IMG/VR virus record: IMGVR_UViG_3300029922_000005
Location: 117,040-181,039 of that record
Length of the DNA stretch: 64,000 bases
Origin: a virus
Direction: 5' to 3' (one strand)
Part shown: one piece after another, positions 1 through 48,075 of the stretch
How positions within the stretch are numbered: the first letter of the stretch is position 1
How the letters are laid out: each line of letters begins with the position of its first letter
Translations under genes and position numbers: made by a program
Notes under the pieces: generated by a model
Told to the model about the DNA's origin: nothing
What the model saw: the letters and a program-made list of their open reading frames with translations, nothing else
Databases searched by the model: none

Positions 1-1021
1 CATCTTTAGCTTTCAATTTAGCATCTATTCTTTTTTTAATTATAATAGATCTCTTATCTGACAATTCTATATCTAAAGTTTTTGCATTTTCAAAATCATA
101 TTCAGTATAAAAATTTTCATTTTCAAAATTTAAATTATCTATAACATCTTTTGTTAATTCAATCCATCCATCAGAATTATTTTTTTTATCATTAAATACG
201 TCATATACTAATTTAATTTTAAGTTTAGACGTAACAACACTAGATCCAGATTTATAAATATTCATTTTTAGCATTTTATATAATAGATTTTTTGTTAGTT
301 CAACAACATCTGTATTGGATAATAAAAAACCATATTCTGGTAATTCAACAACACTATTTGTAATCCTATAATATTTTAATTCCGAATTAAATGATGGTAA
401 TCTTTTTTTCAATAATTCTGAATATAAAGGAAATAAATCTGGATTGAATGCTAATCGATCTAAATTTTTAGAACAACTAATAAATTGCATTTGCATTAAA
501 TCAATATTACCATCAGTCTCATATGTTATATCTCCTACAGTTTCTTTGTTAAATAATGAAGTATCACTTATTTTTTCACCACTAACTGTCATAAGTTCTA
601 TTTTTGATTTACAATTATTTGTTTGTTCAGCGTCAATTATACATAAAACACTTTTTCTTCTAATTGTTTTATCAATCTCATCTTCATTCAATGCAAATAA
701 ATGACCTCTATTTATAATTGCAGGAGAAGCCAACATTGACACAAGTAAATAATTATTATGCAATATATTTGGAGATTGAAATGGAATATCATCAATAAAA
801 ATATTATGTCTTAAACAATTACTAGAAATTTTTATTTTATAATCATATTCACCATTACTTTTCTGATATATATTTTTTTTTGCAAATATTAAATTATTAT
901 CAGTTTCATACTTTCCACCACTAATTTCATTCCATATCCATTTTTGTCCATTACTATCACAGTTAACAACACCATTACCTTCTAATTCCATTTTAAATAA
1001 AATGTTCTTTACTTTTTTCAT
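1..1021 (-). CDS. Cas7-like protein, type I-F2 (Cas7fv) family; 3' end off the window
   Basis: The frame is open for 340 codons from the ATG at 1021 to the left edge, so the C-terminus is missing. It matches the order of motifs I remember from Cas7fv (the RNA-binding backbone of the minimal type I-F2 Cascade): EGNGVVNCDS near residue 14, SSNCLRHNIF near 67, an LASPAIINRGHLF segment near 95, and DTSLFNKETVGDITYE followed by LMQMQFISCSKNLDR near 150-185. The equivalent Cas7fv motifs are GHGVVNW, SQNCIRHHLF, LIRGYV and STSFFSKTTFGDTEY with LQFIS..KKFDR. Family knowledge: Cas7fv polymerises along crRNA. It lies 66 bases downstream of the small-protein array and may share its transcript. Whether cas5, cas6 or an array lie further left cannot be seen. 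The family call is from memory and not searched. Confidence 0.72.
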   Translation of the reverse strand, partial: MKKVKNILFKMELEGNGVVNCDSNGQKWIWNEISGGKYETDNNLIFAKKNIYQKSNGEYDYKIKISSNCLRHNIFIDDIPFQSPNILHNNYLLVSMLASPAIINRGHLFALNEDEIDKTIRRKSVLCIIDAEQTNNCKSKIELMTVSGEKISDTSLFNKETVGDITYETDGNIDLMQMQFISCSKNLDRLAFNPDLFPLYSELLKKRLPSFNSELKYYRITNSVVELPEYGFLLSNTDVVELTKNLLYKMLKMNIYKSGSSVVTSKLKIKLVYDVFNDKKNNSDGWIELTKDVIDNLNFENENFYTEYDFENAKTLDIELSDKRSIIIKKRIDAKLKAKD

Positions 1022-1053
1022 ATTAAATAATTTTAAATTGTTTTTATAAAGTA

Positions 1054-1061
1054 CAAAAGTA
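1054..1061 (-). promoter_or_regulatory. Possible host-type -7 element upstream of the Cas7-like gene
   Basis: TACTTTTG fits the Bacteroidetes -7 element TAnnTTTG and lies 33 bases upstream of the Cas7-like start. No TTTG is present at the expected -33 spacing, so this is weak. Confidence 0.3.
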
Positions 1062-1086
1062 AAGTAAATATTTGGTATAACCTAAT

Positions 1087-1350
1087 TTAATTAAAAATAT
1101 TATTCAATTTTTTCAATTTAATTTTTCTAATCTCATTTTTTCTATAAAAATAAGTATATAAATATTCTTCATCACGTTTAAAAGATGAATAAGCATTTTT
1201 ATCATCAGATATCAAATACTGATAATCATCATCATAATTAATAATAAAATGAACAATATAATATCTATCTTTATGATATATTGAATATGATGTTGTTAAA
1301 TCTTTTTTACATAATAACTTATCTCCTACATTAAGATTCTGATTCTTCAT
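1087..1350 (-). CDS. Array protein 15 (last copy, next to the Cas7-like gene)
   Basis: 87 residues of the GDKLLCKKDL family; function unknown. It has the conserved N-terminus and a central YYIVHFI aromatic strand. Its C-terminal block is a variant, FYRKNEIRKIKLKKL, and ends in NNIFN rather than the usual EESES. It overlaps the preceding copy by 20 bases in another frame, which suggests coupled translation. It is the promoter-distal copy. Confidence 0.85.
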   Translation of the reverse strand: MKNQNLNVGDKLLCKKDLTTSYSIYHKDRYYIVHFIINYDDDYQYLISDDKNAYSSFKRDEEYLYTYFYRKNEIRKIKLKKLNNIFN

Positions 1351-1597
1351 AAATTTTTTCTAATTTAATTTTTCTTTCTTCTTGTTTAGTATAAAAATGT
1401 TCAGACATCTCTTTTATGCTAAATGAAAATGGTAATATTCTATCATTTTCATCATTAAAATAATAACAATATTCATAAGGACCGTATACTACCATAACAA
1501 TATAATAATTATCAACATATAAATATTTATTTGCTCCAACTAGAAGATTTTTTTTACATAATAATTTATCTTCATCATTAATATCCTGTTTCTTCAT
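1331..1597 (-). CDS. Array protein 14
   Basis: 88 residues; unknown function. It starts with the array consensus (NDEDKLLCKKN, slightly degenerate: GD became ED), has a YYIVMVVYGPYEYCYYF core and ends in FYTKQEERKIKLEKIYEE. It overlaps its neighbours by 20 bases on each side. The alternating charged and aromatic pattern suggests a small beta-rich (perhaps SH3-like) fold, which is inference only. Confidence 0.85.
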   Translation of the reverse strand: MKKQDINDEDKLLCKKNLLVGANKYLYVDNYYIVMVVYGPYEYCYYFNDENDRILPFSFSIKEMSEHFYTKQEERKIKLEKIYEESES

Positions 1598-1850
1598 AAA
1601 GTTTTTCTAATTTTATTTTTCTCTCCTCTTGTTTAGTATAAAAATGTTCATAAAAAAATCTAACGCTATATCTAAAAGAATAATATTTTTTTTTATCAAA
1701 TTCTATATAATAACAATAATCAGTATTATTGTCAAATAATTTAATATCATAAACAATATAATATTTATTTTTATTAAAACTTGCATATAATTCATTTAAA
1801 TTTTTTTTACACAATAACTTATCACCTACATTAAGATTCTGATTCTTCAT
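1578..1850 (-). CDS. Array protein 13
   Basis: 90 residues; unknown function. It has the NVGDKLLCKKNL start, a KYYIVYDIKLFDNNTDYCYY core and a FYTKQEERKIKLEKLYEE end. Its last codons (EETGY) are read in another frame from the same bases as the start of array protein 14. Confidence 0.85.
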   Translation of the reverse strand: MKNQNLNVGDKLLCKKNLNELYASFNKNKYYIVYDIKLFDNNTDYCYYIEFDKKKYYSFRYSVRFFYEHFYTKQEERKIKLEKLYEETGY

Positions 1851-2097
1851 AAAGTTTTTCTAATTTAATTTTTCTCTCTTCTTGTTTAGTATAAAAATGA
1901 TTTAGTAATTCATTTTTATTTAAAAAATATGGATATATTCCATTAGATTCATTAAATATACAGCAGGCAAAACCTTTAAATGAATCATTCAGAATTTTAT
2001 GATAAATATAATATTTACATTCTATAAAATGTGTACTATAATTAGCTATTAAATCTTTTTTACATAATATTTTATCACCTTCATTAAAATTATTCAT
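1831..2097 (-). CDS. Array protein 12 (MNNFN subtype)
   Basis: 88 residues; unknown function. It belongs to a second subtype with array protein 10: N-terminus MNNFNEGDKILCKKDL, a YYI.H strand, a CC pair near residue 46 and an ESN.I segment. The C-terminus is the standard FYTKQEERKIKLEKLYEE. Subtype copies alternate with ordinary ones (9/10, 11/12), which points to duplication of a two-gene unit. The overlap with the gene before it is 8 bases. Confidence 0.85.
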   Translation of the reverse strand: MNNFNEGDKILCKKDLIANYSTHFIECKYYIYHKILNDSFKGFACCIFNESNGIYPYFLNKNELLNHFYTKQEERKIKLEKLYEESES

Positions 2098-2341
2098 AAA
2101 GTTTTTCTAATTTGATTTTTCTTTCTTCTTGTTTAGTATAAAAATACTGATGTAAATATGATTCACTAAAAAATGGTAATATTGTATTGAATTCTGATCT
2201 TAAATCATAAAAATATTCACTATAATCAGTTGAAAAATTTTTAATATCATCTACATAATAATATTTATCTTTAATAAATATTTTATCAATCTCCTCTTTA
2301 CATAATAATCTATCTCCTACATTAATATTCTGTTTCTTCAT
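2090..2341 (-). CDS. Array protein 11
   Basis: 83 residues, the shortest copy; unknown function. It starts NVGDRLLCKEE, with a shortened region before KYYYVDDIKNF, and ends at FYTKQEERKIKLEKLYE. The missing tail residues reflect the shorter 8-base overlap with array protein 12. Confidence 0.85.
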   Translation of the reverse strand: MKKQNINVGDRLLCKEEIDKIFIKDKYYYVDDIKNFSTDYSEYFYDLRSEFNTILPFFSESYLHQYFYTKQEERKIKLEKLYE

Positions 2342-2588
2342 AAAGTTTTTCTAATTTTAATTTTCTAATCTCATTTTTCATAAAAAAATGACCAACTAAA
2401 TCATGTTCAGTTAAATAATATGAAAATATATTATTAGATTCACTTATATAACAGCAGTAAAAATCATTAAAAATACCACTAAACATATTATCATGAAAAA
2501 TATAATAATCACCTTCTATAATATGGTTACCATAATAAGTTAAATCCTTTTTACATAATATTTTATCACCATCATTAAAATTATTCAT
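2322..2588 (-). CDS. Array protein 10 (MNNFN subtype)
   Basis: 88 residues; unknown function. It is the closest relative of array protein 12 (MNNFNDGDKILCKKDL, CCYISESNNIF). Its C-terminal block is FFMKNEIRKLKLEKLYEE, a KNEIRK variant also seen in copies 3 and 15, so the C-terminal cassettes have been shuffled between copies. Confidence 0.85.
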   Translation of the reverse strand: MNNFNDGDKILCKKDLTYYGNHIIEGDYYIFHDNMFSGIFNDFYCCYISESNNIFSYYLTEHDLVGHFFMKNEIRKLKLEKLYEETEY

Positions 2589-2856
2589 AATTTTCTATTT
2601 TATCTAATTTTCTTTTTCTTTCTTCTTGTTTAGTATAAAAATATTCATATAAATCTTCTTCACCACAAAATAATATTAAATTATCATCATCATCAAATAA
2701 ATAATAATAATAAAAATCCACACCGCTTATAGTATTAGAAATAATATAAATTGATATCATAGCATAATATTTGTCTATTTTGAAATTTTTATTTATATTA
2801 ATTATATTATATTTACATAATAAATTATCTCCTACTTTAAGATTTTGATTCTTCAT
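2581..2856 (-). CDS. Array protein 9
   Basis: 91 residues; unknown function. It starts KVGDNLLCKYN, losing the usual KK pair after Cys, has a YYYYLFDDDDN acidic core and ends FYTKQEERKRKLDKIENYE. It overlaps copy 8 by 20 bases and copy 10 by 8 bases. Confidence 0.85.
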   Translation of the reverse strand: MKNQNLKVGDNLLCKYNIININKNFKIDKYYAMISIYIISNTISGVDFYYYYLFDDDDNLILFCGEEDLYEYFYTKQEERKRKLDKIENYE

Positions 2857-3112
2857 AAAGTTTTTCTAATTTGATTTTTCTTTCTTCTTGTTTAGTATAA
2901 AAATATTCACAAAATTCTCCGTAATATCTAAAATTAACAGGTTGATATTGTTCACATATAAGCATATAAATATAATCAGTATAATTATTATTAGTTGGAG
3001 TAATTTCACAAACATAATAATATTCAAATTCAATAAGATATGTACTTTCTGAATTAAAAAGATTTTTTTTGCATAATAATTTATCTCCTACATTAATATT
3101 CTGCTTCTTCAT
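2837..3112 (-). CDS. Array protein 8
   Basis: 91 residues; unknown function. It has the consensus NVGDKLLCKKNL start, an EYYYVCEITPTNNNYTDYIY core and a FYTKQEERKIKLEKLYEE end. It overlaps both neighbours by 20 bases. Confidence 0.85.
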   Translation of the reverse strand: MKKQNINVGDKLLCKKNLFNSESTYLIEFEYYYVCEITPTNNNYTDYIYMLICEQYQPVNFRYYGEFCEYFYTKQEERKIKLEKLYEESKS

Positions 3113-3362
3113 AAAGTTTTTCTAATTTAATTTTTCTTTCTTCTTGTTTAGTATAAAAATATTTACAAAATTCTTTTTCATCACAACATACCAATGATTC
3201 GAAATCGTCTAAATAATAGAAATAATAATCTTTACGAGCTACATTAATAATATCAATATATTTAATATAATAATATTTACCTTTTATAATATATGTAGAA
3301 TTTGATAAAAAACTAATCTTACATAATAACTTATCTCCAATATTAATATTCTGCTTCTTCAT
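3093..3362 (-). CDS. Array protein 7
   Basis: 89 residues; unknown function. It starts NIGDKLLCKIS, with a KYYYIKYIDIINVARKDYYF core and the consensus C-terminal block followed by EEAEY. Both junctions have the 20-base overlap. Confidence 0.85.
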   Translation of the reverse strand: MKKQNINIGDKLLCKISFLSNSTYIIKGKYYYIKYIDIINVARKDYYFYYLDDFESLVCCDEKEFCKYFYTKQEERKIKLEKLYEEAEY

Positions 3363-3627
3363 TTTTTAATTTTTCTAATTTAATTTTTCGTACTTCATTT
3401 TTAGTATAAAAATAATCATCAAATTCTTCTATATAATAGAAATCTTTATTGGTATCATCTATTATATTATATTTATAATAAAGTACATCAATGTCAGCAC
3501 TCAAAAGTACATCAAAGTCAGCACTCAAAATTATATATTCTACACCTTTCGTTAATGTCAGATATGATTTATTAACATCAATTTTACACAATAATTTATC
3601 TCCTATATTAAAATTTTGATTCTTCAT
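3343..3627 (-). CDS. Array protein 6 (start moved to 3627)
   Basis: 94 residues; unknown function. The reading frame is open further upstream (to 3705), but the family start MKNQNFNIGDKLLCK and the conserved 20-base overlap both place the real ATG at 3627. Its core contains an in-frame direct duplication of 24 bases (3480-3533; protein LLSADFDV/LLSADIDV), evidence of recent slippage inside a copy. The C-terminal block is FYTKNEVRKIKLEKL. Confidence 0.82.
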   Translation of the reverse strand: MKNQNFNIGDKLLCKIDVNKSYLTLTKGVEYIILSADFDVLLSADIDVLYYKYNIIDDTNKDFYYIEEFDDYFYTKNEVRKIKLEKLKNEEAEY

Positions 3628-3895
3628 GAAGTTTTTGTAATTTAATTTTTCTAGTTTCGTTTTTTGTGTAAAAATAAGTATAAATATCTTCATATGAACA
3701 AACAATATTCATTTTTTCATTTCCTATGGTCATATAATAATATGCATTATCAATATTAAAAAATTTATTATCAATATTAAAAAATTTAATATCATAAACA
3801 GTATAACATGAATTTAGTATATAATATTCAAAATTTGGATGAAATATACGTTTACATATTAATTCATCTCCTATATTAAGATTCTGTTCCTTCAT
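3608..3895 (-). CDS. Array protein 5
   Basis: 95 residues; unknown function. It starts NIGDELICKRI. Its centre holds a short tandem duplication (KFFNIDN twice; bases about 3755-3790). The C-terminal block is FYTKNETRKIKLQKLHEE. It overlaps both neighbours by 20 bases. Confidence 0.85.
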   Translation of the reverse strand: MKEQNLNIGDELICKRIFHPNFEYYILNSCYTVYDIKFFNIDNKFFNIDNAYYYMTIGNEKMNIVCSYEDIYTYFYTKNETRKIKLQKLHEESKF

Positions 3896-4145
3896 TACCC
3901 AACTTTTTTAATTTAATATTCCTAACTTCCTTCTCAGTGTAAAAAAATTCATAAATATCTTTTTCATACTGAACTTCTACCTTTACATTATTATCATCAA
4001 TTATATAAATAAAAGTATAATATTCAGTCTCAAATAAACTATCACTTATAATATATTCGTTCCCTTTATGAATAGATATCTTATGATGAATATAATCTTT
4101 TTTGCATAATAATTTATCTCCTACTTTAAAATTATGATCCTTCAT
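3876..4145 (-). CDS. Array protein 4
   Basis: 89 residues; unknown function. It starts KVGDKLLCKKDY and ends FYTEKEVRNIKLKKLGNEG. The core has YIISDSLFETEYYTFIYII. It overlaps the previous gene by 14 bases, an exception among the junctions. Confidence 0.85.
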   Translation of the reverse strand: MKDHNFKVGDKLLCKKDYIHHKISIHKGNEYIISDSLFETEYYTFIYIIDDNNVKVEVQYEKDIYEFFYTEKEVRNIKLKKLGNEGTES

Positions 4146-4425
4146 TTATTTCATTTAATTTCATGCTTCTAATTTCATTTTTAGTATAAAAATAAGTATA
4201 TAAATATCTTTCCATCCAAAATGAATATCGTTCATTATTATCATCAATTATATAATAAAAATATTCATTATAATCCACAAAAATATCATTAATTAATCTA
4301 ATTTCATCAACAACATAATATTTACCTTTTTTAAAAAATAATAATGAAGTATTATTAGATACCAATGATTTTAAATCATTTTTGCATAATAATTTATCTC
4401 CAATATTAAGATTCTGTTTATCCAT
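4132..4425 (-). CDS. Array protein 3
   Basis: 97 residues; unknown function. It starts NIGDKLLCKNDL and has an extra ~8 residues before KYYVVDEIRL. It ends with FYTKNEIRSMKLNEINEGS, diverged from the consensus. It overlaps copy 2 by 8 bases. Confidence 0.85.
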   Translation of the reverse strand: MDKQNLNIGDKLLCKNDLKSLVSNNTSLLFFKKGKYYVVDEIRLINDIFVDYNEYFYYIIDDNNERYSFWMERYLYTYFYTKNEIRSMKLNEINEGS

Positions 4426-4741
4426 TTATTTTCTGCAATTTCTTATTTCTTAATTCTTTTTTTTCATAAAAATAATCATGAAAAAAACTTTCAGACCAAA
4501 ATGAACATGATTTATTCATTTCTCCATTTATATAATAAATATAATCATCTTGTCCAAATATATGATCACATGTATTCTTATAAGCATATTTATCATCTAT
4601 TATTTTTATATCAACAATAGAATAATATTTATCTTTTATAAAATGAGAAAATATTATTAATTTATCATCACTAATTAAATTTTGAAATAAATCTTTTTTA
4701 CATAATAACTTATCTCCTAAATTAATATTCTTTTTCGTCAT
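4418..4741 (-). CDS. Array protein 2 (longest copy)
   Basis: 107 residues; unknown function. It starts NLGDKLLCKKDL, carries inserted segments before KYYSIVDIKII and around residue 60, and ends FYEKKELRNKKLQKING. Together with copy 3 it is the most divergent, consistent with the promoter-proximal end being the oldest part of the array. Confidence 0.85.
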   Translation of the reverse strand: MTKKNINLGDKLLCKKDLFQNLISDDKLIIFSHFIKDKYYSIVDIKIIDDKYAYKNTCDHIFGQDDYIYYINGEMNKSCSFWSESFFHDYFYEKKELRNKKLQKING

Positions 4742-4988
4742 TTTTTAATTTGTTTAATTTTATTTTTCTTTCTTCTTGTTTAGTATAAAAAACATCATAA
4801 AAATCAACTTTACGTAGATATAATAAATTTTTGCTATTTTTTTCTTTTAATGAATAAAAATTACTACTATAAAATATGTTAGTATTAACTATTTCATATT
4901 CTCTATCTTTATAAAAAACTTCAGTATAATTATAATAACTATTTTTGCATAATAATTTATCTCCAATATTAATATTCTGTTTATCCAT
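4722..4988 (-). CDS. Array protein 1 (first, promoter-proximal copy)
   Basis: 88 residues; unknown function. It starts NIGDKLLCKNS and ends FYTKQEERKIKLNKLKNDE. It is the first intact gene of the array. Its start overlaps a decayed earlier copy by 8 bases, in the same geometry as the live junctions, so the array once extended further. Confidence 0.85.
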   Translation of the reverse strand: MDKQNINIGDKLLCKNSYYNYTEVFYKDREYEIVNTNIFYSSNFYSLKEKNSKNLLYLRKVDFYDVFYTKQEERKIKLNKLKNDEKEY

Positions 4989-6709: not shown

Positions 6710-8344
6710 ATGATTCAAATAGACGACAAAAAAATATTTTTTCCTCTCAAATACGAACCAAAATCTTACCAAATTGATGGACTAAATTTTATTAAAAATA
6801 GTATATTGACAGGTAAACGTTTTATTTTAGAAAATTTGCCGACTGGGGTTGGTAAGTCATTCATGGTCATAATGCTAGCCAATTGGTATAAAGGATTCGT
6901 GAATCCAGATGCCAAATTTGATATTCTTACAGCATCGAAGGTACTTCAAGGCCAGTATATCAGAGATTTTCCGTTCATAAATGATTATAGAGGCAAATCT
7001 AACTATTATTGTAAAGATTTTGATTGTGATTGCGGTACAGCTAAAGAACTCTGTGCTATAATGAAAAAACATTGTGATCAATGTCCATATGACATTGCTA
7101 AAAATTCCTGGATATCTGGAGATATAGGTTTGAGTAATTTTCATCTATTTGATACATTATCATTATTTCAACCTGATATTTTAAAAAGAAGAGATGGTAA
7201 TGTACTTATAATTGATGAGTGTCAATCATTCGAAGAAACCTTCTCATCCTATCTTTCCTCAAAATTAAGTTCAAAAACTTTAAAAAGATGTGGATTTGGA
7301 TTAAAAGAAATTGAAGAGATTGATAGCAAATATATTTCAAAAATTAAATTTTTAGATAAATATTTAGAATTTTTAGAAAGAAAGTTAATACCAATGTTAG
7401 AGAAAAAAAGAACTCAATTTGAATCTGATATTGCTGGATCATCAAAATCAAAACAAAAAGTAGAGTTATCTAAATATTTACAAAATATTGATAGTAAACT
7501 ATTATCGTTTAAACATTTATTTGATTCACATAAAAATGATCCAGATAATGTAGTTCTTGATATCAATAAAAATAAGAGTGAAAAAAATTATAGTGGGATA
7601 GAGTTGGTAACTGAACATATTTTCGTTTATGAGTACCTAAATCAATATGTATGGTCTAAATACGATCATATAATTTTTATGTCTGCTTCTGTACTCGATT
7701 CTAAAATGTTTAGTTTCATTAATGGATTAGATGAAGAATTAACAAGTTATCATGAAATGGATTCTCCTTTTGAATTAAAAAATCATCCTATATTTTATAT
7801 GAAACTTGGTAAAATGTCTTTTTATAGTAAAGAAGAGACTTTTAAGAATCAGATACCTTGGATAAAAAAAATATTAGCTAAATATAAAAACAAAAAAGGA
7901 ATAATTCACACATCAAATTATGAAATAACAGAATGGTTAAAAGAAAATATTATGGATGAAAGGTTATTATTTCACACTACTGAAGATAGAAATGAAATTC
8001 TTGAAAAACATTTAACAAGTACAGCTCCAACAGTTTTAGTAAGTCCATCTATGATGGAAGGAATTTCTTTAGATGATGAATTAGCTCGTTTTCAAATAGT
8101 GTTAAAAATATCATTCGCAAATTTGGGTAGTAAAAAAATTAAAGCAAGACAAAAAATGATGCCTGAATGGTATAGCTGGAATGCATGTGTTCAAACAATA
8201 CAAGAAGTAGGTAGAGGAATTCGTAGTGAAACAGATTACTGCGATACGTTTATATTAGACTCAAACTTTTCAGATTTATTAAAATATAATTCTAATATAT
8301 TACCTAAGCACTTTACAGATTCTATAAAAGTTTTAAAAACATAA
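6710..8344 (+). CDS. XPD/DinG-like superfamily 2 helicase with Fe-S cysteines
   Basis: 544 residues. The Walker A is LPTGVGKS (43-50). A cysteine-rich insertion at 101-125 (Cys 101, 106, 108, 115, 122, 125) sits where XPD/DinG helicases carry the 4Fe-4S cluster. Walker B is IIDECQ (167-172; DECQ in place of DEAH). Motif V-like SPSMMEGISLDDELARFQI is near 450 and motif VI QEVGRGIRSE near 506. Established family role: 5'-3' DNA unwinding on ATP hydrolysis, in recombination or R-loop removal. It is followed by a hairpin terminator and has an AT-rich promoter-like stretch (TTTTTATATACAATAAA) upstream. Confidence 0.85.
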   Translation: MIQIDDKKIFFPLKYEPKSYQIDGLNFIKNSILTGKRFILENLPTGVGKSFMVIMLANWYKGFVNPDAKFDILTASKVLQGQYIRDFPFINDYRGKSNYYCKDFDCDCGTAKELCAIMKKHCDQCPYDIAKNSWISGDIGLSNFHLFDTLSLFQPDILKRRDGNVLIIDECQSFEETFSSYLSSKLSSKTLKRCGFGLKEIEEIDSKYISKIKFLDKYLEFLERKLIPMLEKKRTQFESDIAGSSKSKQKVELSKYLQNIDSKLLSFKHLFDSHKNDPDNVVLDINKNKSEKNYSGIELVTEHIFVYEYLNQYVWSKYDHIIFMSASVLDSKMFSFINGLDEELTSYHEMDSPFELKNHPIFYMKLGKMSFYSKEETFKNQIPWIKKILAKYKNKKGIIHTSNYEITEWLKENIMDERLLFHTTEDRNEILEKHLTSTAPTVLVSPSMMEGISLDDELARFQIVLKISFANLGSKKIKARQKMMPEWYSWNACVQTIQEVGRGIRSETDYCDTFILDSNFSDLLKYNSNILPKHFTDSIKVLKT

Positions 8345-8393: not shown

Positions 8394-8717
8394 ATGAAAG
8401 AGATAGAAGAATGGTTTTATGATTGTAAATTTATTTATTTTAGTTTCAATTTAGATATTGAGCCTACAAATAAAATAAATGAATTTAGAATAATAGCAGA
8501 ATCTGAAATACCTAAGATACCAAATAAATATATATCTGGATTTTATGGATATGTAGAAAAAGGAATATCATATTGTTGGTTAGATTTAATAAATTGTAAC
8601 ATTATCATGACTGATTATGATCATAGTATTATACCATCTGTATTTGAGTTTAATAGAACTGATTGGATTAAGAATAAAAGAAAGAAAAAATTAGAAAATA
8701 TAATTAATAATGTATAA
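8394..8717 (+). CDS. Unknown phage protein (107 aa)
   Basis: 107 residues, not recognised. An acidic and aromatic protein with a basic C-terminal tail (KNKRKKKLENI). Its stop overlaps the start of the next gene by 8 bases (ATGTATAA), which opens a run of overlapping small genes to 10400. Confidence 0.7.
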   Translation: MKEIEEWFYDCKFIYFSFNLDIEPTNKINEFRIIAESEIPKIPNKYISGFYGYVEKGISYCWLDLINCNIIMTDYDHSIIPSVFEFNRTDWIKNKRKKKLENIINNV

Positions 8718-8994
8718 AGTTGGCGATAAAGTTTTTTGCATAAAGGACTGTTACAGAGAGTTTGATAAACTATTGATTTTTAAAAAAAATTATTCATATT
8801 TTATTTACGAGAAAAAAGATTATAATAATATTATTGTAATAAAATACACTAATGATGGTTATGGTTGTGATGGTGATGGTTGGTATTCATTTTGGTTCAC
8901 CCCAAGAATGGAAGATTATGATTTTGATACATATTTTTGTGATTTAAAAGAATTTAGAAAAAATAAATTAGAAAAAATAATTAAAGAATGTTAG
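8710..8994 (+). CDS. Dispersed member of the GDKLLCKK array family (94 aa)
   Basis: 94 residues starting MYKVGDKVFCIKDC and ending CDLKEFRKNKLEKI, the two signature blocks of the minus-strand array at 1.1-5 kb. Function unknown. It shows the family is not confined to the array and exists on both strands. Confidence 0.8.
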   Translation: MYKVGDKVFCIKDCYREFDKLLIFKKNYSYFIYEKKDYNNIIVIKYTNDGYGCDGDGWYSFWFTPRMEDYDFDTYFCDLKEFRKNKLEKIIKEC

Positions 8995-8995
8995 T

Positions 8996-9052
8996 AATTA
9001 CAAAAGAAGAGATAAAGTTTACTGTAAGAAAAATACAGAAAAAAAAAAATAA
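8996..9052 (+). pseudogene. Decayed GDKLLCKK-family copy
   Basis: One frame reads RRDKVYCKKNTEKKK then stops in an A-rich run. RDKVYCKKN is close to the family N-terminus GDKLLCKKN. It looks like an internally deleted copy next to the live gene at 8710. Confidence 0.4.
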
Positions 9053-9068
9053 AAAAAAATATTAGAAC

Positions 9069-9368
9069 ATGAAAAATAAAGAAGAAATATTAATTTGTAG
9101 TTGTCATTCAACTGATCATCAACTTATATTTTTATATGAAGAAGATATAACAGAATCAGGTAAAATTGATCCTATATGTTATGCTCATGTATTATTAAAT
9201 AGAAGATCATTTTGGAATAGATTAAAATATGGTATTAAATATATTTTTGGTTATAGATGTAGGTATGGCGCATTTGATGAATTTATTTTTAAACCTGAAG
9301 ATGCTTATAAAATTCAAAGATTAGCTAATTATTTAAAAAGTGAGTTAGAAAATGCGTCCAAAGATTAA
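9069..9368 (+). CDS. Conserved phage protein of unknown function (99 aa)
   Basis: 99 residues. It has CSCHSTDHQ near residue 10 and RLKYGIKYIFGYRCRYGAFDEF near 52-74, a pair of motifs I recognise from small hypothetical proteins of many phages; no function is known to me. The cysteines C10, C12 and H14 could bind metal. It overlaps the next gene by 17 bases. Confidence 0.8.
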   Translation: MKNKEEILICSCHSTDHQLIFLYEEDITESGKIDPICYAHVLLNRRSFWNRLKYGIKYIFGYRCRYGAFDEFIFKPEDAYKIQRLANYLKSELENASKD

Positions 9369-9606
9369 TGAATATTATTATTGCAAGAAAGCAATGAAAT
9401 TTTTATTTAATAATGACTATTTTGAAAAAGGAAAACATTATAAAGTTTCAGATCGTCATCATGGTGACGTAGTTATAATTTCTAATATTGGTGAAATGGT
9501 GTTCTCATTAGAGAATCATATGAGTTATTTGTATTTTTATGAATATTTTGGAACTATTAAAGAAGAAAGAAAAGAAAAATTAAATAAGTTATTAAATGCA
9601 TCCTAA
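9352..9606 (+). CDS. Array-family-like small protein (84 aa)
   Basis: 84 residues: NEYYYCKKAMKF at the start, KGKHYKVSD in the middle and FYEYFGTIKEERKEKLNKL at the end, a diverged form of the array family (CKK; FYTKQEERKIKLEKL). It overlaps the next gene by 11 bases with re-used codons, like the array junctions. Confidence 0.75.
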   Translation: MRPKINEYYYCKKAMKFLFNNDYFEKGKHYKVSDRHHGDVVIISNIGEMVFSLENHMSYLYFYEYFGTIKEERKEKLNKLLNAS

Positions 9607-9874
9607 GATTAATGAATTATATTTTTGTAAAAAGACATTAAATACAACTCTTAATAATTTTCCTGAATTAGAAAAAGGAAAATATTATAAATTAACTCAT
9701 ATATATGATAGTGTTATTACAATTATACTTAATGATAAAATTAGTGAAATATCATTTTCATTAGATGATGAATATGATGAATATAGTGTTTATTTTTATT
9801 TTTATGAATATTTTGGAGATAATCAAGATGCAAGAAAATATAAATTAAATAAGTTATTAAATGATAATGTATAA
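9596..9874 (+). CDS. Array-family-like small protein (92 aa)
   Basis: 92 residues, a tandem paralogue of the gene before it (NELYFCKKTLN start, KGKYYKLTHI core, FYEYFGDNQDARKYKLNKL end). Function unknown. It overlaps the next gene. Confidence 0.75.
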   Translation: MHPKINELYFCKKTLNTTLNNFPELEKGKYYKLTHIYDSVITIILNDKISEISFSLDDEYDEYSVYFYFYEYFGDNQDARKYKLNKLLNDNV

Positions 9875-13163: not shown

Positions 13164-14810
13164 TTAGATTTGTTGGGTAACAATTCTAACTTTACTTTTA
13201 CAATTTCCTAAGTGATAGTCTATTAACACATCATCTTTTAATAACATGTTCCGATACTTCAGTTGGTTGGTCTTTCTATATAATTGAATCCAATTATCCT
13301 GTGTTGTGTTGATATTCTCACCAAGTAGATAAAACAATTTCTCTTGATTTATTAAATTCATACACGGGTATATAGAACTACCTTTTTTAAATTTATTCAT
13401 CCCTCTACTGCCAATTTCAATGCTAGATGAAATTGGGTCAAAGAAGGTATGTATCATATTTCCGATAAAACTACTATAAGCAGCGTTTACCTCTATTTTA
13501 TTTAAGCCATTTTCATTACAATATTTAGTAATCAAGTTGGTCGTTAAAGTTCGATGCCATAGATTTTTAGTTTGTTTATTTAACTCTTTACCTACTGTAT
13601 CTTTTGATTGTTTATCTTTAAAATCAAGATCTTCCATCACAAAATTATACACTCTGAAGTGCTTACACATCATGAATATTTGTTTCCAGACTTCTTTTAT
13701 TTCATGTTTTCTTTTATCATTTTGTTTAACTTGTTTCTTGTCTGAAGAGCTTAAACTTAATTTCGTACTTAACTCAGATAAAATAAAGCACTGAACATGA
13801 ATTAATTTCTGCTCATCATTAATGTCATCAAATATACTTAAACCGATAAACTTTGGATTTAAATCAACCGCCATGTAACGATTTGATAGCTTACCTACTT
13901 TTTTTCTATCATTTTGTTCATTCTTATGCTTTATATAAATTTCCTTTTTACTTTCTTTGCTTAACGCAAGTAACTGTTCTTTCTTGCAGTCCAATTGATT
14001 GAATTCATAACCATTTAATAACTCTTCGTCATAAGATAAATGAATATATTCGTTTGATAATCTTATGGTCACTGGCATTAAATTCAGGTTAGACATTTCT
14101 TGAATTTTAATTAATTTATTTTTTTGTTTTTTGCCGTTAGTTTTAAAAGTGATATCAATTTTAAAATCTCTTGATGGTTTGAAAGTGATTTTATTATTAA
14201 TTAGATCGAAATCAATTTTTCTGTTACCTTTTTCACAGGCACGTCCGATTAAATAAATTCCTAATTTACGTTTTGATGTGAACTCTAATTTCTTGAGCCC
14301 TAACCTTTCTATTAATTCTTTCTTATATTCAAGAAATTTCTTGTAATCTGTTGATTTAATATCAATCTTTGTTAGCTGTAGCTCAGTTTTATAAATATTT
14401 AAATGTAATTTCGTGATTTCACGTTGTAGTGCTTTACCACCAAATGTAATATTATTGTTTATATTTCGTTTAATTCTTGCTAGATTATTTATTAAATTAT
14501 ATTTTTTACGTTTTTCCTTTTTTGTTTTGAATTCGTTATTATCAAGACATTTCTGAATATCAATTATCTTTTTTGATTTCTTTTCTTTGGTTGCTTCGTG
14601 CTGTTTAAGTTTTGTTTTCACATCAGAAATACAACAATCAAACATGGATTTGTCTAACACAGAATTATTTAATAGTGATTTTATATAATCATCATCAATT
14701 AAATCAAAATGATTATAAAGAGTATAAAACAAACCAGTGTAGTCAGAACAATATTGATCTATTATCTCTGCTTGTAAGCACTCTTTTATTTTTAATTTAA
14801 TAGTTAACAT
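13164..14810 (-). CDS. tnpB: TnpB-like RNA-guided nuclease (548 aa)
   Basis: 548 residues. RuvC-like catalytic positions are visible: Asp316 (RYMAVDLNPKF), Glu393 (NFVMEDLDFK) and a final Asp458 (FFDPISSSIEIGSRG). The four-cysteine zinc finger that normally lies between the last two motifs is absent; the region reads VNAAYSSFIGNM instead, a form shared with the second TnpB of this window. The N-terminal 300 residues are Lys-rich and helical, as expected for the RNA-binding lobe. Established role: RNA-guided DNA cleavage that helps retain the transposon. Confidence 0.85.
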   Translation of the reverse strand: MLTIKLKIKECLQAEIIDQYCSDYTGLFYTLYNHFDLIDDDYIKSLLNNSVLDKSMFDCCISDVKTKLKQHEATKEKKSKKIIDIQKCLDNNEFKTKKEKRKKYNLINNLARIKRNINNNITFGGKALQREITKLHLNIYKTELQLTKIDIKSTDYKKFLEYKKELIERLGLKKLEFTSKRKLGIYLIGRACEKGNRKIDFDLINNKITFKPSRDFKIDITFKTNGKKQKNKLIKIQEMSNLNLMPVTIRLSNEYIHLSYDEELLNGYEFNQLDCKKEQLLALSKESKKEIYIKHKNEQNDRKKVGKLSNRYMAVDLNPKFIGLSIFDDINDEQKLIHVQCFILSELSTKLSLSSSDKKQVKQNDKRKHEIKEVWKQIFMMCKHFRVYNFVMEDLDFKDKQSKDTVGKELNKQTKNLWHRTLTTNLITKYCNENGLNKIEVNAAYSSFIGNMIHTFFDPISSSIEIGSRGMNKFKKGSSIYPCMNLINQEKLFYLLGENINTTQDNWIQLYRKTNQLKYRNMLLKDDVLIDYHLGNCKSKVRIVTQQI

Positions 14811-46473: not shown

Positions 46474-48075
46474 TTAAAAAGTATACACTTTCCAATGGTT
46501 TCTTTTAGTATTTTTGCTAGAACAGTCAACTGGCTTTATATCGGTTAGCTGCCAACGGTATATAATTCCCGCCTTTTTGAATAGTTTATAAAGGCTTACC
46601 CAGTTTTCACAATCTTTAACAACTGAAACATCAGGAAAAGAATTAATAAATCTTTCAACCACTGTGTTCAGCATTGTACTTGTAAATTTTGGATAAAAAC
46701 CATTCTTATCATATTTATAAGCTCCTCTTCTTCCGATTTCAGTTGCTGCTGCAACAGGGTCGAATACTGAGTAATTTATATTTCCGATAAAACTTGAATA
46801 ACAAGGATTAACTTTTATTAATATTAATCCATTATTATCACAATGTTTATTTATTAAATTTGTTTGGAAGCCTAAGTTCCAACAATTATTTATTTTACGA
46901 CGAACTTCTTTTGACATTTCATCCTGACTATTTGATTTAAAGTTTAAGTCTTCCATCACAAAATAACCACACTTGTAGTGAGTTATTATATCAAATATCT
47001 TAACGTAAATGTTACCGATTTCATGTTTTCTTTTTCTGGTTAGATAAAGACTTTCGTCTACGGTAACATCTTTACCTGATTTTTTCATCAACTCACTTAA
47101 GTCATAACATTTACTATCAATTACTTTAACTTCATCATTTGATGTTTTATCTAAGATTACTAAACCAATATAATCAGGATTTAAATCAACTGCAGCAAAT
47201 CTATTTTGATTTTTGCCTACAAGTTTTCGTGATGTTTGTTCTTGTTTATGTTTAATGTAAATGTTTTTGTCGTACTTACCATTATTCTTTTCTTTGATTT
47301 CCTTGATGTAAGTTTTATAATCAAAAGGTTCACCATTAATCATTTCATTATCAACTGTAATACAAAGATATTCATGATCTAACTTGACTGAAATAGGTAA
47401 TATATTTAAGTCTTTAATTAATTGAAGATCCTTCAATTGTTTCTTATAATTACCTTTAACTACATAATTGATATAAATTTTATTCTCGCTGTTCATTTTA
47501 TAAATGATTTGATTATTAGTAAAATCAAATTCAAAAAATCTATTAGAATTAGGATCACATTTAGATCCGTAAAGACTCAAAGGAAGGATTCTATTCGAAT
47601 GATATTCATCTGTTTTAGTAATTATAGTGTTTTTATTTTCCTTTTTATCATTATTTAAGTAGGATATTTCTTTTAGTAGTTTTCTTGTACCGAAAGTAAT
47701 ATCCTTTGATAAATTTCTATTTTTATAACTTAAGTTTTTCTGATATTTAAATAGATTCCTTGTTTCTTTTTTGGTTAATTTTATTTTTGATTGTAATTCT
47801 TTTATATCATCTTGTAAATCAAGTATTTCCTGTGATAATTTATCTTTATTTGTTTGAATTTGCTTAAATTTTGTCTTAACATCAATTATTAAACAGTTAG
47901 ACTCGTAAACACTCAAACCATATATTTTAGTTAATTTAGTAATATATTCTTTATCATTAATTTTATCATAATGTTTATAAAGTTTACGAAAGAAATATGA
48001 AAACTGTTTCTGACGATTTAATATTTTAAGTTTACCCTCTTCACTAACGTTAAATCCAACTTTTATTGATATCAT
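46474..48075 (-). CDS. tnpB: TnpB-like RNA-guided nuclease (533 aa)
   Basis: 533 residues. RuvC-like positions: Asp297 (RFAAVDLNPDYIGL), Glu375 (YFVMEDLNFKS) and Asp439 (VFDPVAAATEIGRRG). As in the first TnpB, YSSFIGN replaces the usual zinc-finger cysteines. The two TnpBs share layout but differ clearly in sequence, so they arrived separately. Family role: RNA-guided cleavage of donor or empty sites. Its last codons overlap the reading frame of the interrupted gene. Confidence 0.85.
   Translation of the reverse strand: MISIKVGFNVSEEGKLKILNRQKQFSYFFRKLYKHYDKINDKEYITKLTKIYGLSVYESNCLIIDVKTKFKQIQTNKDKLSQEILDLQDDIKELQSKIKLTKKETRNLFKYQKNLSYKNRNLSKDITFGTRKLLKEISYLNNDKKENKNTIITKTDEYHSNRILPLSLYGSKCDPNSNRFFEFDFTNNQIIYKMNSENKIYINYVVKGNYKKQLKDLQLIKDLNILPISVKLDHEYLCITVDNEMINGEPFDYKTYIKEIKEKNNGKYDKNIYIKHKQEQTSRKLVGKNQNRFAAVDLNPDYIGLVILDKTSNDEVKVIDSKCYDLSELMKKSGKDVTVDESLYLTRKRKHEIGNIYVKIFDIITHYKCGYFVMEDLNFKSNSQDEMSKEVRRKINNCWNLGFQTNLINKHCDNNGLILIKVNPCYSSFIGNINYSVFDPVAAATEIGRRGAYKYDKNGFYPKFTSTMLNTVVERFINSFPDVSVVKDCENWVSLYKLFKKAGIIYRWQLTDIKPVDCSSKNTKRNHWKVYTF

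Follow-up and report, generated by a model that had tools for sequence, protein, structure and literature searches.

The 64 kb analysed here (the window: G000:C1:117040-181039 of a linear IMG/VR record of 181,039 bp) opens inside a cas7 gene. With good probability this gene belongs to an interference-only CRISPR-Cas system that derives from type I-F2 and is carried by a phage, where it is likely to bar competing phages or elements from the infected cell. Judged by sequence, two of its four proteins are I-F2-like (Cas7 and Cas3), one is Cas6b-like and one is new, and the cluster appears to be built from pieces of two bacterial CRISPR types. Related clusters were found in two further phage lineages, here called B and C; the window phage represents lineage A.

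The cas gene cluster

Most of the cluster lies to the left of the window, in locus L002 (G000:C1:100000-119999). In lineage A the order on the minus strand is cas7, cas5-position gene, cas6, CRISPR array, cas3:

Window 1-1021 (first 340 of 357 codons; whole gene L002:16988-18061), minus strand: cas7, Cas7fv-like backbone, from HMM and predicted structure
L002:16078-16977, minus strand: cas5-position gene, 299 aa, third subunit by position, novel
L002:15390-16094, minus strand: cas6, Cas6b-like, 234 aa
L002:12881-15288, minus strand: CRISPR array, 37 repeats of 36 nt and 36 spacers, leader on the cas6 side
L002:10464-12761, minus strand: cas3, 765 aa, HD and helicase, without a Cas2 domain

The original prediction had offered, as one reading of the edge gene, a phage CRISPR system continuing to the left of the window, and this is what was found: four cas genes and an array on one strand of the viral record. 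It was also right that the 64 kb hold no array, which starts about 1.75 kb left of the window. Cas3 and repeats turned up in the left flank as anticipated, while the cas5fv and cas6f sought with them were not found, the Cas6 there being Cas6b-like.

Within the window, cas7 is an open frame of 340 aa at 2-1021 (minus strand) that runs off the left edge; the gene ends 53 bases farther left, giving a full length of 357 aa. Every motif by which it had been recognized as a Cas7fv is present, in the order given, and its assignment as a backbone of that kind stands in the form of a remote Cas7fv, on HMM, PDB and Foldseek matches. A profile search of the 340 residues gave significant matches to PADLOC Cas7fv (3.8e-13) and to NCBIfam NF040577 cas_Cas7fv (E = 1.7e-19 over 268 residues, at 70 bits and thus below the equivalog cutoff of 200 bits), and single-sequence phmmer found the Cas7 of PDB 5o6u/9g44 at E ~9e-8. 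A profile built from the Cas7 of the three phages matches all 82 of the cellular Cas7fv tested (best 7.8e-31). The six top PDB matches of its AlphaFold2 model (pLDDT 78.6; the input alignment contained cellular Cas7fv) are all I-F2 Cas7 subunits (9g44/5o6u/5o7h; Foldseek E 1.7e-14 to 1.5e-12). The phage Cas7 is also longer at its C terminus, by about 85 residues that the cellular Cas7fv lack. Immediately upstream of cas7, window 1087-4988 (minus strand) holds a tandem row of about 16 paralogues, each of 83-120 codons, with the pattern MKxQNxNxGDKLLCKK...FYTKQEERKIKLEKLYEE, and look-alikes occur at window 8710-9874 (plus strand); this is a striking tandem expansion of a small protein.

Cas3 is matched by PADLOC Cas3fv (6.5e-66) and, above its cutoff, by the TIGR01596 HD family; its closest relative in PDB (E = 4.4e-52) comes from the solved structure of the minimal I-F2 interference complex, 9g44, chain A. 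All three phage lineages retain the HD, AGFGKT, DE[YF]HE, SAT and QRIGRC motifs, and such intact HD and helicase motifs favour cleavage over silencing and speak against decay. Cas6 belongs with Cas6b (6.5e-36; TIGR01877 above cutoff) and not with Csy4. For the 299-residue protein in the cas5 position, searches of Pfam, NCBIfam, PADLOC and PDB gave no significant match; it has no link to any Cas5 by sequence, and its predicted model (pLDDT 49) is too poor for a fold search; a likeness to a Cas5fv motif seen by eye (SVxxxxxxLxxLxGER) was given no support by HMM tests. There is no cas8 or cas11 gene in the cluster, in which it resembles I-F2, and Rfam has no match in L002. A T4 late promoter, TATAAATA, seen before the array and cas3 was set aside, as it shows no enrichment upstream of genes in this 22% GC genome.

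Directly downstream of cas3, L002:8419-10371 (minus strand) encodes 650 aa in which helicase-like motifs are visible by eye but which matched no family; this gene is not seen next to the cas genes of lineages B or C. A DinG/XPD-like helicase at window 6710-8344 (plus strand; PADLOC typeIV_DinG 5.8e-52) was considered as a partner, the S. putrefaciens I-Fv system having a CasDinG (PMC12714560), but a search of the lineage B and C records gave no match, and it is therefore left out of the system's parts. A 548-aa protein at window 13164-14810 (minus strand) has RuvC-like motifs by eye (AVDLNPKFIGLSIF, VMEDLDF); it is perhaps TnpB/Cas12-like, although Pfam, NCBIfam and PDB gave nothing significant. 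A 533-aa protein at window 46474-48075 (minus strand) was noted alongside it.

Recurrence in three phage lineages

Seven further IMG/VR contigs of 100-256 kb share a 100% identical 13-kb stretch with the same 36 spacers, making eight contigs in lineage A. Lineage B (L015, 66 kb) has an array of eight repeats plus a decayed ninth, followed by cas3-cas7-cas5-cas6, and downstream of the cas genes a gp25 baseplate wedge gene (Pfam 3.8e-12). Lineage C (L111, 124 kb; partial copies are L105-L110 and L143, seven in all) has the order cas3-cas7-cas5-cas6-array, and its record has matches to the T4 gp23 capsid protein. Arrays of both B and C have the 36/30 geometry, and one sample, 3300028563, contains both lineages. 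Relative to the window phage, identities are 49-51% for Cas7, 39-48% for Cas3, 58-59% for Cas6 and 37-42% for Cas5, with all frames open; such identities, of 37-59%, indicate that all four genes have been kept through long divergence. Near the tail region of lineage B, L015:3-848 and 930-2018 (plus strand) encode domains that by eye resemble ice-binding (DUF3494) ones.

That the system is phage-borne, as had been proposed, is supported by phage genes in its genome, by the eight agreeing contigs and by the two further phage lineages; array and effector genes lie together within the phage genome, as the definition of a phage-encoded CRISPR-Cas system has it. The lineage A genome encodes gp32, a UvsW-like helicase, an RNA ligase, PhoH, a DNA polymerase and a tail spike. 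It is very improbable that the cluster entered a viral contig by mis-assembly of bacterial or plasmid sequence: the record is classed as linear and no capsid or sheath gene was identified in lineage A (an uninformative absence, as the terminase and sheath families searched miss the forms these phages have), but eight assemblies agree, the phage genes just listed accompany the cluster, and baseplate genes flank the lineage B locus as gp23 matches mark the lineage C record. A Bacteroidetes host is plausible.

Relationship to types I-F2 and I-B

For comparison, 84,980 species genomes were scanned, giving 134 relatives, of which 80 loci were kept, none with a Cas7 more than 33% identical to that of the phage; with two plasmid loci these make 82 cellular I-F2 loci. 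Across these 82 loci the phage profiles find Cas7 in 82 and Cas3 in 79, and Cas5 and Cas6 in none. The cas5-position protein has no match, in either direction by HMM or hhalign, to 74 cellular Cas5fv (a comparison at the sequence level, so that a shared fold is possible), nor does the phage Cas6 match any of 67 cellular Cas6f/Csy4 by profile-profile comparison and exhaustive HMM search. Residue 2 of the phage Cas3 aligns to residue 106-107 of the cellular Cas2/3 proteins, whose Cas2-like N-terminal domain is about 106 residues long; the Cas2 half is thus cleanly missing from the phage protein. In the two plasmid loci cas1 adjoins cas3, and the phage cluster has no adjacent Cas1. All 60 arrays found in cellular I-F2 loci have a period of 60, and 55 of the 60 have 28-nt repeats, while the phage arrays are 36/30, not 28/32. 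The type I-F2 label given originally holds for Cas7 and Cas3; it is too strong for the system as a whole, since tests showed Cas5fv, Cas6f, a Cas2 fusion, Cas1 and 28-nt repeats all to be absent. As for type I-B, Cas8b, Cas7b and Cas5b are unmatched by the cluster proteins, Cas6 alone being Cas6b-like.

Array and spacers

In lineage A, 30 of the 36 spacers are of 30 nt, five of 29 and one of 31, and the repeats are mostly identical. The leader is placed on the cas6 side because variant repeats cluster at the cas3 end. The repeat ends are conserved (..TCTCAAC or ..TCACAAC), and folding places a short hairpin before them in lineages A and C. No array with the GTTG..TNACAAC 36/30 pattern was found in 396 Bacteroidota genomes, and the idea that the repeat mimics a host's was dropped, as the arrays found beside Bacteroidota Cas6b genes carry different repeats.

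Searches of 50,697 phage records and 72,556 plasmids yielded no secure protospacer, and in IMG/VR spacers 25 and 36 matched the phage's own arrays only. Self-targeting was rejected, since against their own genome the spacers do about as well as shuffled ones, with 5 mismatches at best, as was targeting between the three lineages (best 6 mismatches among the sequence stretches compared). The spacers hold more open frames than shuffles do (3.14 vs 2.70, a value reached by 3 of 200 shuffles), as expected if they were taken from coding DNA. Spacers 7 and 9 (L002:14859-14727) are identical at 26 of 30 nt and differ at 4, which suggests that a single variable target was captured twice. Their reverse-strand translations are SVFNVNKQYV and SVFDSNKQYV, and a codon-degenerate scan found this motif, with 5 of 30 mismatches, right before the Walker A of the terminase large subunit (terL) of L122, a gene identified by its homologs. 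This match is suggestive as a lead only, about three unrelated genes matching too and similar matches arising by chance (P(distance <=2) = 3.5%); a figure legend of PMC11656645 names terminase genes among the targets of phage CRISPR loci.

Proposed mechanism and role

The anatomy of the system is well supported; what we infer is its action (expression, processing, assembly, DNA cleavage, target identity and acquisition in trans), with the steps of the mechanism taken from homology. The array would be transcribed together with the cas genes, and the Cas6b-like protein would cut within the repeat, so that each crRNA keeps a 5' handle of approximately 8 nt (..CAAC), a cut that the conserved repeat ends and the hairpin preceding them fit. 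Several copies of Cas7, together with the cas5-position protein, would then coat the crRNA, and the resulting effector would bind matching double-stranded DNA and recruit the stand-alone Cas3, whose HD nuclease and helicase would destroy the bound DNA. The likely use is to exclude competing phages or other elements from the infected cell.

The same machinery might instead serve mainly in counter-defence, against host defence islands, satellites or host genes, in the manner of the type I-F system with which ICP1 attacks PLE (PMC11656645). That precedent, the occasional aiming of huge-phage spacers at host genes (PMC7162821) and the failure of the phage, plasmid and IMG/VR searches to secure a phage protospacer all speak for such a role. 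We nevertheless consider it rather unlikely as the main one: nothing found points to host targets, spacers 7 and 9 seem to record a single target as it changed, and the sole suggestive match is to a phage terminase gene. The other early suggestion, of a solitary Cas7 acting as a decoy for host crRNAs or binding RNA for another purpose, had nothing to commend it beyond the gene's being cut at the window edge; the array, Cas6, Cas3 and the third subunit gene in the same cluster refute both forms of it.

How an interference-only system would gain its spacers is a separate matter. No match to Cas1 or Cas2 (PF01867, PF09827) was found in six viral records, where control genomes were positive; as these virus records are incomplete, a distant cas1 is possible. 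Within lineage C, L110 and L111 differ in the first spacer (CGTCAACCATTGTTTCGAAACCTTCTTTCA vs AAAAGGCTTAAGCAATTATTTCAAAACGCT), the leader and the remaining array being identical, which may reflect either independent acquisition or the loss of different spacers from a longer ancestor. We read these arrays as turning over despite the lack of adaptation genes. By analogy with the VI-B array of F. columnare, fed in trans by the II-C Cas1 (PMC8092290), and with plasmid type IV-A, which uses the host's I-E adaptation module (PMC11656645), acquisition in trans by a host Cas1-Cas2 is plausible, and the absence of Cas1 and Cas2 from the phage would mean that any new spacers are inserted by host machinery. 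A simple donor among the Bacteroidota with Cas6b relatives is not supported, since the arrays found beside the closest of these relatives lack the phage repeat.

A frozen inheritance is quite possible, with spacers that date from before capture or came in from host arrays by recombination, and with no acquisition now: the six records lack Cas1 and Cas2 matches, and 36 identical spacers recur in eight samples. Against this, it is exactly the leader-proximal spacer that differs in L110, with leader and rest the same (though a single deletion in each copy, starting from a longer ancestral array, would fit too), and the repeats are near-perfect over 37 copies. The alternative, in which the phage family keeps only genes for interference (Cas7 and Cas3 of I-F2, a Cas6b that was swapped in, and a third subunit of a new kind) while the host Cas1-Cas2 writes spacers into the phage array and so arms the phage against its rivals, is offered tentatively and with some doubt.

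Comparison with known systems

Phage CRISPR systems without adaptation genes are already known (PMC7162821; PMC12607003). No I-F2-derived phage system and no such gene combination was found in the literature searched, which did not take in the 2022 Cell survey of virus-encoded systems (10.1016/j.cell.2022.10.020), so that an earlier mention is possible. Here three phage lineages have maintained a minimal class 1 effector that consists of Cas3 and three putative complex proteins, one of them of a new kind. This suggests that the modules for crRNA processing, for target recognition and for adaptation can be separately exchanged or dropped. The system offers a testable case for the use of host adaptation machinery by phages and is a candidate for a compact DNA-deleting tool.

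With type I-F2, as in S. putrefaciens and the 82 cellular loci, it shares the Cas7fv backbone, the Cas3fv-like helicase-nuclease, the lack of cas8 in the cluster and, in lineages B and C, the order cas3-cas7-cas5-cas6; it differs in being phage-borne, in its 36/30 array, in a Cas3 without the Cas2 domain, and in having no detectable Cas5fv, Cas6f or Cas1. The Cas6 family it shares with type I-B-like Cas6b of Bacteroidota, a relative being present in 36 of 396 genomes (E<=1e-10), but the arrays there, where found, have 26-30-nt repeats, mostly ending ..ATTGAAA, as against 36 nt and ..CACAAC/CTCAAC in the phages. The F. columnare VI-B array (PMC8092290) is similar in its 36-bp repeats, mostly 30-bp spacers and lack of its own Cas1/2, and the II-C arrays share the 36/30 pattern; that system, however, is chromosomal and RNA-targeting, and for the phage a trans donor is hypothetical. 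Vibrio phage ICP1 likewise carries a Class 1 CRISPR-Cas with an array, of type I-F and akin in Cas7, but has an adaptation module (PMC11656645), which the window phage lacks. The huge-phage systems (PMC7162821) are also found in large phages and without spacer acquisition genes; the type I case among them is an I-C variant in which a helicase replaces Cas3, and their arrays have a median of six repeats, compared with 37 in the window phage.
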